A DNA stretch of 64,000 nt from a methanogenic archaeon ISO4-H5. GTDB lineage: Archaea > Thermoplasmatota > Thermoplasmata > Methanomassiliicoccales > Methanomethylophilaceae. Positions 11,070 through 19,366 of the stretch are shown piece by piece. A program made the translations under genes and the position numbers. The stretch is taken from NCBI GenBank assembly GCA_001560915.1, contig CP014214.1, positions 124,001-188,000 of the forward strand. The letters are read 5' to 3'. Below the pieces are notes generated by a model, which ran no database searches, was not told where the DNA came from, and was given only the letters and a program-made list of their open reading frames with translations. The first letter of the stretch is position 1. Each line of letters starts with the position of its first letter.

Positions 11070-12683
11070 ATGGATTCTTTGCTGGAGACACTGTCCGCTA
11101 TCGCGGATGCCGTGAAGAAAGCTGTCGACCTCATCCCCACCCTCGAGGAAAGGGGTAAGGACCTGGGTATGGGAGCCGACGGCACGTCGACCTCCGAGGT
11201 GGACAAGATAGCGGAGAATACCGTTCTGGATTACATCGCGCGCCATAACGTCCCCCTGAACGTCCTCAGCGAGGAGATCGGCTATGTGGACAACGGTTAC
11301 GAGGAAGTTTTGGTTCTCGACCCCATCGACGGCACCTCCAACTGTATCGCGGGAGTGCCCATGTTCACCATCTCGATGGCCGTGGGAAAGTCCAAACTGT
11401 CTGACATCCACACCGCCTACCTGCGCAACCTGACTACCGGAGAAGCTATGTGGGCTCTCCGCGGAAAGGGTGCTTACAAAGACGGGAAACAGGTGCATGT
11501 CCGCGACCTCAATCCCCGCGATATGTTCATGATGATCTATCTCGGCAACGGCGCCGACCCCAAGGCATTCGCATTGGCCAAGAGGGTGCATTCCTCCCGT
11601 TCCTACGGCTGCGCATCCATCGAGATGGCGCTGGTCGCAGAGGGACAGGCAGACGGATTCTACATGCATTCCGAGAATTTCAACCGCGGCATCAGGGTGG
11701 TCGACATAGCCGCCAGCTATCTCCTCCTCAAGGAGGCGGGAGGACATGTGTTCGACCTCGAAGGCAACCCCCTGGATATGCCGTTCTCTCTGGACGCCCG
11801 TTCCAGTTTTTTCGCCTGCGGACAGCCCGAGCTCTTCGATTTCGCCGTGAACGGACATCCGTTCATCAAGAAGGACCGTAAATACGGTCTGCTGGTGAAT
11901 CCGAACGTCCCCAAGGCCAAGGAATATGTCGAGAGGGCATACAGCTGTCTGAAGGGACAGGACGTGGTCGTCGATCCCGTGGCGGGAGAGATGCTGGGTA
12001 TACAGTCCGTACCTGTTCCCGACATGGATGTGGACATCATAGTAACCATCGGCGGTGACGGAACGATCCTGAGGACCGCCATGAGCAATTCAGCAGCCAT
12101 TGTCGGCATCAATGCTGGGGGAGTCGGATTCCTGGCGGAGATCGACATCGACGACATCGAGGAAGGCTTGGCACGCCTCATCCGCGGCGAGTTCTCCATC
12201 GACGAGCGTTTCAAGCTTGACACGTTCTACAACGGCAAGAAACTCGAGCCCGCGGTCAACGAGACCGTGGTGCACACCGACACCGTCGGCAAGATCAGGC
12301 AGTTCAAGGTCTATGTGGACGGAAGGCTCGCGACAGAACTCCGTGCGGACGGAATAATCATCTCCACCCCTACCGGATCCACCTGTTATGCTATGAGTTT
12401 GGGAGCACCCATCATCGATCCCAATGTCAATGCATTCGTCATCGTGCCCATGGCCGCCTACAAGTTCGCCTGCAGGCCCATCGTGGTCCCTGCCGATGCG
12501 GACATTACCGTGGAATGTGTTCTCGACAGAGGATGTCTGCTGGTCATCGACGGTCAGGCGGAGCATCAGGTGCCCGGACAGGTGAAGATCGACTTCCAGC
12601 GCTCCAAGGAGAAGGTGCGCTTCGTCATGTTCGGCAAGGACTTCTATTCCCGTGTCAGGGAGAAACTGGTGAACGCGATATGA
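11070..12683 (+). CDS. Bifunctional inositol monophosphatase-family phosphatase / NAD kinase fusion
   Basis: A 537-residue fusion. Residues 1 to about 265 are an IMPase/FBPase-like phosphatase with metal ligands EE at 68-69, DPIDGTSN at 84-91 and the late motif VVDIAASYLLLKEAGG. Residues from about 271 are an NAD kinase with GGDGT at 328-332, NAGGVGFLAEI and TPTGSTCYAMS near 432. The same fusion order is known from Methanocaldococcus MJ0917, which has NADP phosphatase and NAD kinase activity, so control of the NAD/NADP balance is likely. It is divergent from flpA and its stop overlaps the next start (ATGA). Confidence 0.93.
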   Translation: MDSLLETLSAIADAVKKAVDLIPTLEERGKDLGMGADGTSTSEVDKIAENTVLDYIARHNVPLNVLSEEIGYVDNGYEEVLVLDPIDGTSNCIAGVPMFTISMAVGKSKLSDIHTAYLRNLTTGEAMWALRGKGAYKDGKQVHVRDLNPRDMFMMIYLGNGADPKAFALAKRVHSSRSYGCASIEMALVAEGQADGFYMHSENFNRGIRVVDIAASYLLLKEAGGHVFDLEGNPLDMPFSLDARSSFFACGQPELFDFAVNGHPFIKKDRKYGLLVNPNVPKAKEYVERAYSCLKGQDVVVDPVAGEMLGIQSVPVPDMDVDIIVTIGGDGTILRTAMSNSAAIVGINAGGVGFLAEIDIDDIEEGLARLIRGEFSIDERFKLDTFYNGKKLEPAVNETVVHTDTVGKIRQFKVYVDGRLATELRADGIIISTPTGSTCYAMSLGAPIIDPNVNAFVIVPMAAYKFACRPIVVPADADITVECVLDRGCLLVIDGQAEHQVPGQVKIDFQRSKEKVRFVMFGKDFYSRVREKLVNAI

Positions 12684-16495: not shown

Positions 16496-16765
16496 TCAGG
16501 TGAAGTAACTGAGCAGGCTGCCTGCCACGAGGATTATTATCAGCAGGACTGCGACCTTTACCCATTTCCAATCTTTCTCTTGGATGAGGCATTTGGTGGA
16601 GATTACGACTCCTGCCGCAGGGGTGAATATCAGCACGAGGATTCCCGCTGCGATGATGTCCTCGCTGAATCCTGCAAAGGAAAGGACGAGTCCGACAGCC
16701 ATGATCGCAAGGCCGACCACGGTGCCCCATCTCAGGACCCATGAGGTCTCGTCGTTGAGGCTCAT
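16496..16765 (-). CDS. DUF1634-family membrane protein
   Basis: 89-residue protein with three hydrophobic segments, opening MSLNDETSWVLRWGTVVGLA and containing GILVLIFTPAAGV. DUF1634 genes are commonly found directly after TauE/SafE transporters, as here, where the start overlaps the tauE stop (ATGA). Probably an accessory subunit of the transporter. Its stop is one base past the rarA stop, tail to tail. Confidence 0.8.
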   Translation of the reverse strand: MSLNDETSWVLRWGTVVGLAIMAVGLVLSFAGFSEDIIAAGILVLIFTPAAGVVISTKCLIQEKDWKWVKVAVLLIIILVAGSLLSYFT

Positions 16766-17586
16766 AGGTATCCTCCTGCCTTTGCCAGCATGATGATGCA
16801 GATGAAGAAGAACACCACTGACATGTATCTCTTGATGGCGGAGGCGTTGACCCTCTCGGATATCTTGGTTCCGAGGATGGCTCCGAAGTAAGCGCCGATG
16901 GCAACGGTGGCAGCGATCTGATATGAAATCGCTCCCTGTATGAAATAGATAATAGCACCGGAGAATGCGGTGATCCCGATCATGTAGTTGCTGGTGGCGC
17001 TCGCCACCTTGATGGGGACGTGCATGTAGATGTTCATCAGGGGGACCTTGATGCTCCCTCCTCCGACACCGGTCATGGAGGATACAGCTCCGGCGATGGT
17101 GCAGAGCGCCATTCCGCTCTTGCAGTTCTTGACCGTGTACGGTCTGTTCTCCACTCCCGATGCGGGATCAGAGTACATGAAGGTCATATTTGAGGAACCT
17201 TCCTCCTCTGCGATGATCTTCTCGGGAGACATTGCCATCTTGATTCCGCTGTATAGCATGACCATGGAGAACACCACGAGAAGGGCCCAATTTGCCATGT
17301 AAGTGGCTATAATCGCTCCGATTATGGCTCCGACGGTGGTCGTGATTTCCATAAGCATGCCTAGACGAACATTTGACAAACCTTTTTTGACATATCTCTT
17401 GGCAGACCCGGTAGACGTCGCTACGATACCTACCAGACTCGCGGCTGCCGCAGTAGTGGCATCCTGTCCGAAGATGATGGTCAGGACGGGGACGAAGATG
17501 ATTCCGCCACCCAATCCGAAAAGCGCACCTACGATACCCGCTCCCACGGAGATGAGCAGAAGCACCAAGAGCATCATAGGTTCCAT
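16762..17586 (-). CDS. TauE/SafE-family anion (sulfite/sulfonate) exporter
   Basis: 274-residue integral membrane protein with about eight helices in two related halves: GIVGALFGLGGGIIFVPVL in the N-terminal half and SSMTGVGGGSIKVPLMN in the second, both family signatures. The substrate is a sulfur-containing anion or small organic acid in known members. It is co-transcribed with the DUF1634 gene. The start MEPMMLLVLLL at 17586 places a membrane segment right at the N-terminus. Confidence 0.9.
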   Translation of the reverse strand: MEPMMLLVLLLISVGAGIVGALFGLGGGIIFVPVLTIIFGQDATTAAAASLVGIVATSTGSAKRYVKKGLSNVRLGMLMEITTTVGAIIGAIIATYMANWALLVVFSMVMLYSGIKMAMSPEKIIAEEEGSSNMTFMYSDPASGVENRPYTVKNCKSGMALCTIAGAVSSMTGVGGGSIKVPLMNIYMHVPIKVASATSNYMIGITAFSGAIIYFIQGAISYQIAATVAIGAYFGAILGTKISERVNASAIKRYMSVVFFFICIIMLAKAGGYL

Positions 17587-17647: not shown

Positions 17648-18511
17648 ATGGCAATCCTCCTGATGCGTTATTCTGAAATCGGCCTCAAAGGCATCAAGGT
17701 TAGGAACAACTGGGAGAACCGTCTCAAGGACAACATCATCCAGATGTTTTCAGCCGACGGAGTGGAGGCATTCGTCATCCGTGGTCAGGCCCGTTTCTTC
17801 ATTGAGACCGCTGATGTGGAGGCTGCCGTCAATTCGCTCAAGAAGGTCTTCGGAGTGGGTTCTGTGTCACTCTGCGAGACCGCAGGCACCGCCATGGAGG
17901 AGATCACCGCCAAGGTAGCCGAATACTCCAAGAGCAGGATGGTCGAGGGAAAGACTTTCGCCGTCCGTGCCAGGCGTGAAGGGAACCAGAAGTTCAACAG
18001 TATGGAACTCGCAAAGGCGTGCGGCGATGCCATCTGGAACGCCAACCTCGACAAGGATCCCAAGGTAGACCTCCACAACCCCGACATCATATTCTGGGTG
18101 GAGGCAAGGCCCAGGGAGACTTACATTTTCCAGGATTACATCTACTGCCACGCAGGACTCCCCATCGGAACGCAGGGACACATACTTGCCGAGGTGGAGA
18201 ACGAACGCGGTCTGCTTTCAGCGCTTCTGATGATGAAGAGAGGATGCAAGGTATACGTCAAGGGCGATTATGGCCTCGACGTGCTCCGTGAGTTCGATCC
18301 AAACCTTAAGGTCGTCGACGACGGAATCTTCTCAAGCAAGTACCTGGGAATTTCCATGGGATTGGACATCAATCAGATTGCCGATTTCGAGCAGGGCGAT
18401 ATGCCTGTGTTCTTCCCTTCAATCGGAATGACCGATGACGAGGTCGCAGAGCAGATGAAGGTCTACCGTGCGGAAGCGGAGGCCTCTCCCCGCAGGCGTC
18501 TCGCACAGTGA
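17648..18511 (+). CDS. ThiI-like THUMP-domain protein lacking the PP-loop
   Basis: 287 residues. The N-terminal ferredoxin-like and THUMP domains of the tRNA sulfurtransferase ThiI are clear (LLMRYSEIGLKG; GKTFAVRARREGNQKF near 101; HNPDIIFWVEAR). The domain boundary LPIGTQG (171-177) and the helix ending MMKRGC (195-200) are kept. Between them the ATP-pyrophosphatase signature SGGxDS is replaced by AEVENERG, and only about 90 residues follow, without the catalytic cysteine region or a rhodanese. It should bind tRNA but cannot adenylate U8 as ThiI does. It is an intact frame with a normal start, so probably a functional derivative. Confidence 0.85.
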   Translation: MAILLMRYSEIGLKGIKVRNNWENRLKDNIIQMFSADGVEAFVIRGQARFFIETADVEAAVNSLKKVFGVGSVSLCETAGTAMEEITAKVAEYSKSRMVEGKTFAVRARREGNQKFNSMELAKACGDAIWNANLDKDPKVDLHNPDIIFWVEARPRETYIFQDYIYCHAGLPIGTQGHILAEVENERGLLSALLMMKRGCKVYVKGDYGLDVLREFDPNLKVVDDGIFSSKYLGISMGLDINQIADFEQGDMPVFFPSIGMTDDEVAEQMKVYRAEAEASPRRRLAQ

Positions 18512-18613: not shown

Positions 18614-19234
18614 TCAGTTGTTCCTGTTTCCGTTAGCACCGCCGGAAGGCCTTACCTTCTCGGCTCCGTGGCCCTTGTTCCTGAGTCCACGGCCCTTGGC
18701 ACCGGCGGAGGTGAGTCCGCGGTACACACGGTTCTTGTGTTTGTTGTTGCAGATCCAGCTGATCTTGGGGTCGTGCTGGATGACGGGGTGTCCGGGGTCA
18801 ACGAGGATAACCTCGTACCACTCGTTCTGTCCGTCTGCGCCAACCCAGTAGGAGTTCAGGACCTCGAGGTTCTTGTATCTCTTCTGAGTCCTCTCTTCGG
18901 CCATCCTCTGAAGGGATTTACCGACGATGAGCTGTTCCTCTCCTTTCCTCTTGGCACGCCTACCGTGGTTGATGTGCCTCTTCTGGAAGGCTCCTTTCCT
19001 GACCTTTGCCCTGACAAGGACGTATCCCTGTTTGGCTTTGTATCCGAGAGCCCTTGCCCTGTCGAGCCTGGTGGGCTTCTCGATGCGGAGGAAGTTCTCT
19101 TCCCTCCTCCACTGGATCCTTCTCTCAATGTTCAGTTCCTTCACGTAAGTCTTGGAAGGGACGTTCCAGGCCTCAGCGATGTACCTGTACATGCTTTTTC
19201 CCTGGGGGTGTGCTGCAGTGTTTTCGTCTGCCAT
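18614..19234 (-). CDS. rpl15e: 50S ribosomal protein L15e
   Basis: Archaeal/eukaryotic large-subunit protein, about 206 residues, containing [14 protein letters not shown], the [20 protein letters not shown] motif and a basic glycine-rich end ([18 protein letters not shown]). The ATG at 19234 is chosen because GGTGAT sits four bases upstream; a GTG at 19243 is in frame but overlaps that ribosome site. A TATA at about 19318-19327 gives a leader near 60 nt. It ends the minus-strand information cluster. Confidence 0.96.
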
Positions 19235-19366
19235 ATAAATCACCTATAGCGGATTCGCCCATTAGGGTACATTTCCGACGGAGCCTACGGTTCCGTGAAT
19301 CGAAAGCATTACTATCCCGTATATAAACCGTGCTCCCGCGCTATATAATAAAATGATGCGCGCGAC

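Follow-up and report, generated by a model that had tools for sequence, protein, structure and literature searches.

A ThiI-like gene without a PP-loop

The window analysed here is a stretch of 64,000 nucleotides from the methanogenic archaeon ISO4-H5 (contig CP014214.1, positions 124,001 to 188,000), of the order Methanomassiliicoccales in the phylum Thermoplasmatota. It encodes a protein related to the 4-thiouridine (s4U) synthetase TtuI/ThiI, in which an N-terminal ferredoxin-like domain (NFLD) and a THUMP domain precede a dead PP-loop domain. The source genome is a single contig of 1.94 Mb, 99.9% complete, and encodes McrA. The features of the gene, in window coordinates, are the following:

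17648..18511, + strand: open reading frame (ORF) of 287 aa with ATG start and TGA stop; NFLD-THUMP protein whose PP-loop domain is shortened and dead, the proposed tRNA-binding subunit of a split s4U synthetase
17657..17869, + strand: ThiI_fer, the NFLD (residues 4-74; Pfam PF22025, E 2.1e-15)
17891..18130, + strand: THUMP domain (residues 82-161; Pfam PF02926, E 8.1e-16)
18155..18178, + strand: linker motif GLPIGTQG (residues 170-177)
18170..18475, + strand: shortened PP-loop-fold domain (residues 175-276), the proposed docking surface for a catalytic partner
18197..18211, + strand: site of the lost PP-loop, E184-N185-E186-R187-G188 opposite ThiI SGGIDS in the alignment to 2c5s
18401..18445, + strand: MPVFFPSIGMTDDEV (residues 252-266), corresponding to PVLRPLIGLDKLEI in the catalytic domain

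A preliminary description, made from the DNA letters alone, had reported a preserved THUMP domain with preserved flanking segments, a loop in which AEVENERG replaces SGGxDS, and a catalytic domain cut to about 90 residues. The Pfam THUMP match and the positions of GLPIGTQG and LLMMKRGC (the latter at residues 193-200) bear out the first of these, and 87 residues, a truncated remnant, follow MKRGC. The replacement had been placed correctly to within a few residues: in the alignment to Bacillus anthracis ThiI (2c5s), SGGIDS lies opposite E184-N185-E186-gap-R187-G188, one residue shorter. TIGR00342, the ThiI model of 373 positions, matches the window protein over positions 1-200 only, scoring 121.4 bits where the cut-off is 264.5. 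Thus, of the attributes of a single-chain ThiI/TtuI, the NFLD and THUMP domains are present, while SGGxDS in the same chain and a TIGR00342 score above the cut-off are lacking. Since both the PP-loop and the cysteines are missing, the window protein by itself should be unable to make s4U, as the preliminary description had held. Its AlphaFold2 model has a mean pLDDT of 93.5.

The altered loop is not peculiar to this assembly. From 61 genomes of the order we collected 58 distinct sequences with at least 200 aligned residues, merging duplicate loci and excluding a 148-aa fragment (G022), an 84-aa fragment (G020) and a 65-aa piece of a broken second copy in G036, of which the 223-aa piece was retained. 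All 58 align through the loop region and none contains SGGxDS. The alignment of these proteins, hereafter THUMP halves, has 56 rows (A1) and 31 invariant columns, distributed over the NFLD (among them R7, Y8, E10, G12, L13, K14 and R19), the THUMP domain (R109, R110, G112, P145, E152 and F161), the linker (G170, P172, Q176 and G177) and the remnant (M196, R198, G199, G238 and P257). A fusion to the upstream gene was considered for three genomes with longer open frames (G042, G018 and G028; 594, 594 and 748 aa) and rejected; Pfam shows ThiI-type domains only, so the extra length was taken as open frame.

Both ends of the C-terminal remnant align with ends of the ThiI domain. Its start (strand, dead loop and helix LLMMKRGC) can be aligned with the beginning of that domain in 2c5s, and homology links its C-terminal piece (PVFFPSIGMTDDEV) to the catalytic-domain end PVLRPLIGLDKLEI (profile–profile probability 94.6%, E 6.5e-8); the remnant is therefore the catalytic domain minus its middle and its PP-loop. 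Residues 175-276 can also be superposed on PP-loop enzymes, TtuA among them (Z 6.4, 100 residues, rmsd 3.0), a middling score when taken alone. On the evidence of these alignments, the C-terminal part of the window protein is a shortened, dead PP-loop domain derived from the ThiI catalytic domain. Intermediates occur in two deep lineages: the INTERMEDIATE forms of G231 (410 aa) and G198 (447 aa) are THUMP halves with a near-full-length catalytic domain from which the PP-loop is absent. TIGR00342 covers them over positions 1-324 and 1-315, respectively, and each of these genomes also encodes an intact, separate catalytic ORF.

A separate catalytic half and its distribution

The source genome has one other ThiI-type ORF, of 208 aa, located about 1.64 Mb from the THUMP gene (G000:C1:1780018-1780638). 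It carries SGGIDSPVA, CILC and a third cysteine; CxxC together with a third cysteine is the motif of archaeal iron–sulfur (Fe-S) TtuI. The match to Pfam ThiI (PF02568) is strong (E 6.3e-53, 179.8 bits, cut-off 20.5), and the AlphaFold model (pLDDT 95.4) has a TM score of 0.93 to the catalytic domain of Thermotoga maritima ThiI in its complex with RNA (4kr6/4kr7). S8, G10, D12, S13, C85, C88 and C168 are retained in all 60 distinct catalytic halves of the order (alignment A2, 60 rows), a set that excludes one gene in pieces with a stop (G013) and one 86-aa fragment (G052). Profile searches of the source genome, where a second full ThiI had been suggested as a thing to look for, yielded neither a second full-length ThiI nor any other full ThiI-like catalytic domain; what they found instead was this stand-alone half. 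The other PF02568 matches are weak (20.6-22.1 bits), short and partial, and lie within ORFs of 320-381 aa. The sole other THUMP protein of the genome is a 337-aa ORF with the sequence DPPYG, presumably a methyltransferase-like motif.

Right before the catalytic half of the source genome, and overlapping its start by 4 nt, lies a 61-aa ORF with a coiled-coil-like sequence (L032:3837-4019, + strand). Its C-terminal end is conserved (GRxNT/RFNN), and similar ORFs were found in at least 35 of 59 genomes with a strict pattern, a lower bound because that pattern misses the source genome's own copy. This ORF has no Pfam match above the cut-off. It is a possible third component of the enzyme.

In the order, all 61 genomes match TIGR00342 and none exceeds its cut-off, which 8 of 14 named controls do. 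The matches fall in two ORFs, one covering model positions 1-200 (the THUMP half) and the other about 174-370 (the catalytic half). The THUMP half was detected in 57 of the 61 genomes (in 56 with more than 200 aa) and the catalytic half in every one (in 59 with more than 150 aa); 54 have both at those lengths, and no ORF is matched by both halves. The four genomes with no detected THUMP half are G004, G029, G049 and G055 (completeness 70, 97, 81 and 78%).

The same pairing extends across the phylum. Among 150 genomes of at least 92% completeness, searched with profiles of the two halves (E ≤1e-8 and ≤1e-18) and tallied from the result tables, 84 are split, 40 encode a fused ThiI, six have the THUMP half only (G168, G183, G194, G219, G236 and G209, the last a weak partial match), one has the catalytic half only and 19 have neither. 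Fused forms are concentrated in family f19 (28 genomes), with five in f15, six in f30 and one in f27; one genome (G255) has two fused copies and another (G180) an additional catalytic fragment of 156 aa. No fused genome contains a separate NFLD-THUMP half, the extra THUMP matches in four of them (G069, G107, G180 and G240) being partial and weak. Within f30 a single genus is split (G165; THUMP half only in G183 and G236) and the other genera are fused, so that the two states alternate within a family. Co-occurrence of the halves among the 110 non-fused genomes gives a Fisher p of 3.4e-15, a value overstated because the genomes are related. In a sample of 100 genomes of the class, 14 encode a full-length ThiI and show exactly one match apiece, 77 have at least two matches and one has none. 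The ThiI of f19, a sister family, ends in a rhodanese-like tail, as has been reported for Thermoplasma in an earlier structural study (PMC4041423).

Families f40 and f48 keep or lose both halves together: of their 21 genomes in the phylum set, six have both, 15 have neither and none has just one. At the thresholds used, those 15 genomes also lack a fused ThiI; it may be that s4U at tRNA position 8 (s4U8) has been lost there, given the absence of all three genes.

A proposed two-subunit synthetase and its alternatives

A polypeptide combining NFLD, THUMP and a dead domain makes up, together with a second that carries only a live PP-loop domain, the parts of a single ThiI half-site, from which a two-subunit enzyme can be proposed. 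In the study of T. maritima ThiI bound to RNA, the homodimer is the functional unit: the NFLD and THUMP of one subunit grip the acceptor stem and CCA, U8 lies at the active site of the other subunit, and the two subunits meet mainly through their catalytic domains (PMC4041423). In the enzyme proposed here, the NFLD and THUMP of the window protein would hold the acceptor stem and the 3' CCA end of the tRNA, measuring from the latter, while its dead, shortened PP-loop domain would dock on the catalytic subunit and so present U8 to it. The partner would adenylate U8 with ATP and insert sulfur, probably through an Fe-S cluster on CxxC plus the third cysteine; an Fe-S cluster requirement has been reported for Methanococcus maripaludis ThiI (PMC5372739). 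The known homodimer acting in trans would thus have become a heteromer with one job per chain. Judging from sequence and predicted structure, we consider it very likely that a split 4-thiouridine synthetase has the window protein as its RNA-binding, non-catalytic subunit and the product of the separate gene as its catalytic one. The preliminary description had offered two functions, both placed by implication outside s4U synthesis. That of a subunit guiding another enzyme gains from the intact catalytic domain found elsewhere, which tracks the THUMP half across the phylum; that of a tRNA chaperone does not. The implied placement finds no support either, the protein being proposed to work as part of the synthetase itself.

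The two halves are occasionally linked. G271 contains an additional pair arranged as an operon, in which the stop of the THUMP half is followed after 4 nt by the start of the catalytic half on the same strand, and in G023 a second pair is divergent, back to back, 231 bp apart. These belong to a wider set of extra copies (G271:C36, C14, C6; G023:C1), with three catalytic halves and two THUMP halves in G271 and two copies of both in G023. In genomes outside the order, the catalytic half adjoins a ThiF-type E1 (G070 and G062), a ThiS-family gene (G198) or NifU with a class-V aminotransferase (G080), which look like sulfur-transfer genes; such neighbours were seen by eye at at least 4 of 11 inspected loci, among the loci listed.

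Several observations weigh against a two-subunit enzyme. Pairing is imperfect, with a single half in 7 of the 150 genomes, including the 97% complete G029 (catalytic half only); a partly different draw adds further genomes with one half, among them G191 of f40 with a single catalytic match, and in the class sample 8 of 100 genomes have a single, non-fused match. The catalytic half of one f40 genome (G158) is without CxxC. The halves lie far apart in the source genome, and linkage occurs in two genomes only; moreover, the neighbours of the two halves of the linked G271 pair differ between the two trees. A mirror-tree comparison gave a distance correlation of 0.81 over 66 genomes, reached by 0 of 999 permutations, yet this co-evolution signal is weak because there was no control gene and the correlation is mostly shared species history.

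The alternative that survives best accepts that the pair cooperates and differs on its origin: the halves would have arisen by simple gene fission, the remnant merely serving to fold the THUMP half without touching the partner. The history is not resolved by trees, which were built by a quick method only. In these, a branch with support 67.8 separates the 71 THUMP halves from the rest, and a single clade cannot be rejected for the 73 catalytic halves (p-AU 0.83); a single origin of the split is thus allowed for each half and demonstrated for neither. Fission, however, would not leave both ends of the catalytic domain on the THUMP half, nor the full-length dead domain present in G231 and G198, and the dimer interface of ThiI lies mainly in the catalytic domains (PMC4041423). 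We therefore hold simple fission to be unlikely. The remnant homology and the dead domains of G231 and G198 favour duplication with complementary loss, and a full-length ThiI was probably duplicated, each copy then losing what the other kept.

A somewhat more doubtful reading has the THUMP protein serve some other tRNA-modifying enzyme as its RNA chaperone or adaptor, after the manner of THUMPD1/Tan1 with NAT10/Kre33, and lets the catalytic half act independently. The catalytic half does occur with no detectable THUMP half in G029, and the two genes have distinct conserved neighbourhoods in the order: rpl15e is near the THUMP half at 48 of 60 loci, whereas a Csl4-like exosome gene and a methyltransferase accompany the catalytic half at 60 and 57 of 66 loci, respectively. 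THUMP-only partner proteins are also known, one of them in Thermococcus kodakarensis, according to a 2023 review (PMC9957541). Against such an adaptor stand the remnant's homology to the catalytic domain of ThiI itself, the linked pairs of G271 and G023, and the alternation of the pair with a fused ThiI in genomes that are also without a separate THUMP half. We regard it as improbable.

In the source genome, the THUMP gene is flanked by a divergent TauE/SafE-family gene (16762-17586, − strand) and by a convergent rpl15e (18614-19243, − strand). A small DUF1634 gene directly follows the former, the two together occupying window positions 16496-17586 on the minus strand. Elsewhere in the window, a single ORF (11070-12683, + strand) combines an inositol-monophosphatase domain with subsequent NAD kinase domains, and the three tRNA genes each have the ordinary T at position 8.

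Less plausible still is a catalytic half that acts alone as a sulfurtransferase on some other substrate, with the THUMP half a decaying relic. Pfam recognises no RNA-binding domain on the catalytic half, and some of its members weakly match the sulfur transferase LarE, yet the best-named matches are to ThiI, in sequence and structure alike (E 6.3e-53; TM 0.93). Nor does the THUMP half look decayed, with 31 invariant columns over 56 sequences, and f40 and f48 keep or lose both genes together. A sequencing artefact or frameshifted full-length ThiI has a negligible probability: broken copies occur in some drafts (the catalytic half of G013 and the second THUMP half of G036), but nothing of the kind was found in the source genome, a single near-complete contig with its halves about 1.64 Mb apart, and the recurrence of the same split in 84 of 150 genomes of the phylum rules out a frameshift or misassembly.

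Comparison with known proteins

The best match of the window protein in the Protein Data Bank is PH1313 of Pyrococcus horikoshii (1vbk; Foldseek E 4.1e-25; VIA Z 26.0, rmsd 2.9, 270 residues), followed by ThiI itself (2c5s and 4kr7; Z 23.7 and 23.3). PH1313 likewise has an NFLD, a THUMP domain and a shortened PP-loop domain without SGGxDS, and it matches the profile over 273 of 281 positions (E 2.2e-51), although it is about 26% identical to the window protein. The altered protein is therefore not new as an architecture. In the quick tree PH1313 groups with fused forms (support 85), a clade with the split forms not being rejected (p-AU 0.73). A scan of the genome contigs with its sequence returned one locus, a full-length ThiI of 395 aa in a Clostridia bacterium metagenome-assembled genome (L132:5989-7173, + strand), and none from Thermococcales. 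In the literature consulted we found no report that the family is catalytic; the 2023 review describes PH1313 as ThiI-like, lacking conserved residues, with an activity that 'has not been confirmed' (PMC9957541). Among the titles, abstract openings and passages surveyed in the open-licence PMC literature, none gave an account of a split ThiI/TtuI. Relative to that literature, what is new is that the THUMP gene is paired with a stand-alone catalytic gene, that the pair is widespread in the phylum and alternates with fused ThiI, and that intermediates exist.

Full-length ThiI/TtuI (T. maritima 4kr6/4kr7, B. anthracis 2c5s) shares the NFLD and THUMP with the window protein and the catalytic domain with the separate half. 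It is, however, a homodimer of one polypeptide, whereas here the dead and the live PP-loop domain are encoded by two genes. An annotation of just one half as 'ThiI' or 'hypothetical' would miss the enzyme. Because the split parts tRNA recognition from sulfur chemistry, each could be assayed alone.

The catalytic half resembles PRK08349 (NCBIfam NF006222, 'hypothetical protein', 198 aa), presumably a Thermococcales family, in standing alone and in length. It scores 181.6 bits with that model against 176.3 for ThiI, but remains below the family's own cut-off of 251 bits. A wider reading can be built on these likenesses. In it, the 4-thiouridine synthetase would be an obligate heteromer across most of the phylum, derived from the homodimer by duplication and complementary loss, with G231 and G198 as living half-way stages; PH1313 would serve an enzyme of this kind as its THUMP subunit, partnered by a stand-alone PRK08349-like protein, and fused ThiI would have displaced the split form in some lineages. 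We find the arguments for and against this wider reading evenly balanced. If it is right, an orphan architecture that recurs, in which a THUMP domain is joined to a dead PP-loop domain, would acquire a function, as would the crystal structure of PH1313.

THUMP proteins that partner acetyltransferases, of the THUMPD1/Tan1 type, are not known to have a remnant of a PP-loop fold; the window protein differs from them in having one, which can be superposed on PP-loop enzymes and aligned with the catalytic domain of ThiI. Inactive partners of RNA-modifying enzymes also include ADAT3 of ADAT2/ADAT3, a deaminase with an unrelated catalytic fold. The eukaryotic U34 thiolase Ctu1/Ctu2 (Ncs6/Ncs2) belongs to another PP-loop subfamily, acts at another tRNA position and, to our knowledge, has no THUMP domain. 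Like the pair described here, it is proposed (PMC10067955) to be a heteromer derived from a duplicated homodimeric PP-loop tRNA thiolase, with one catalytic subunit and a diverged Ctu2 that likely orients the tRNA. The split ThiI would then join Ctu1/Ctu2 as a second example of a homodimeric tRNA thiolase turned into a catalytic and non-catalytic pair, and one with its intermediates available.
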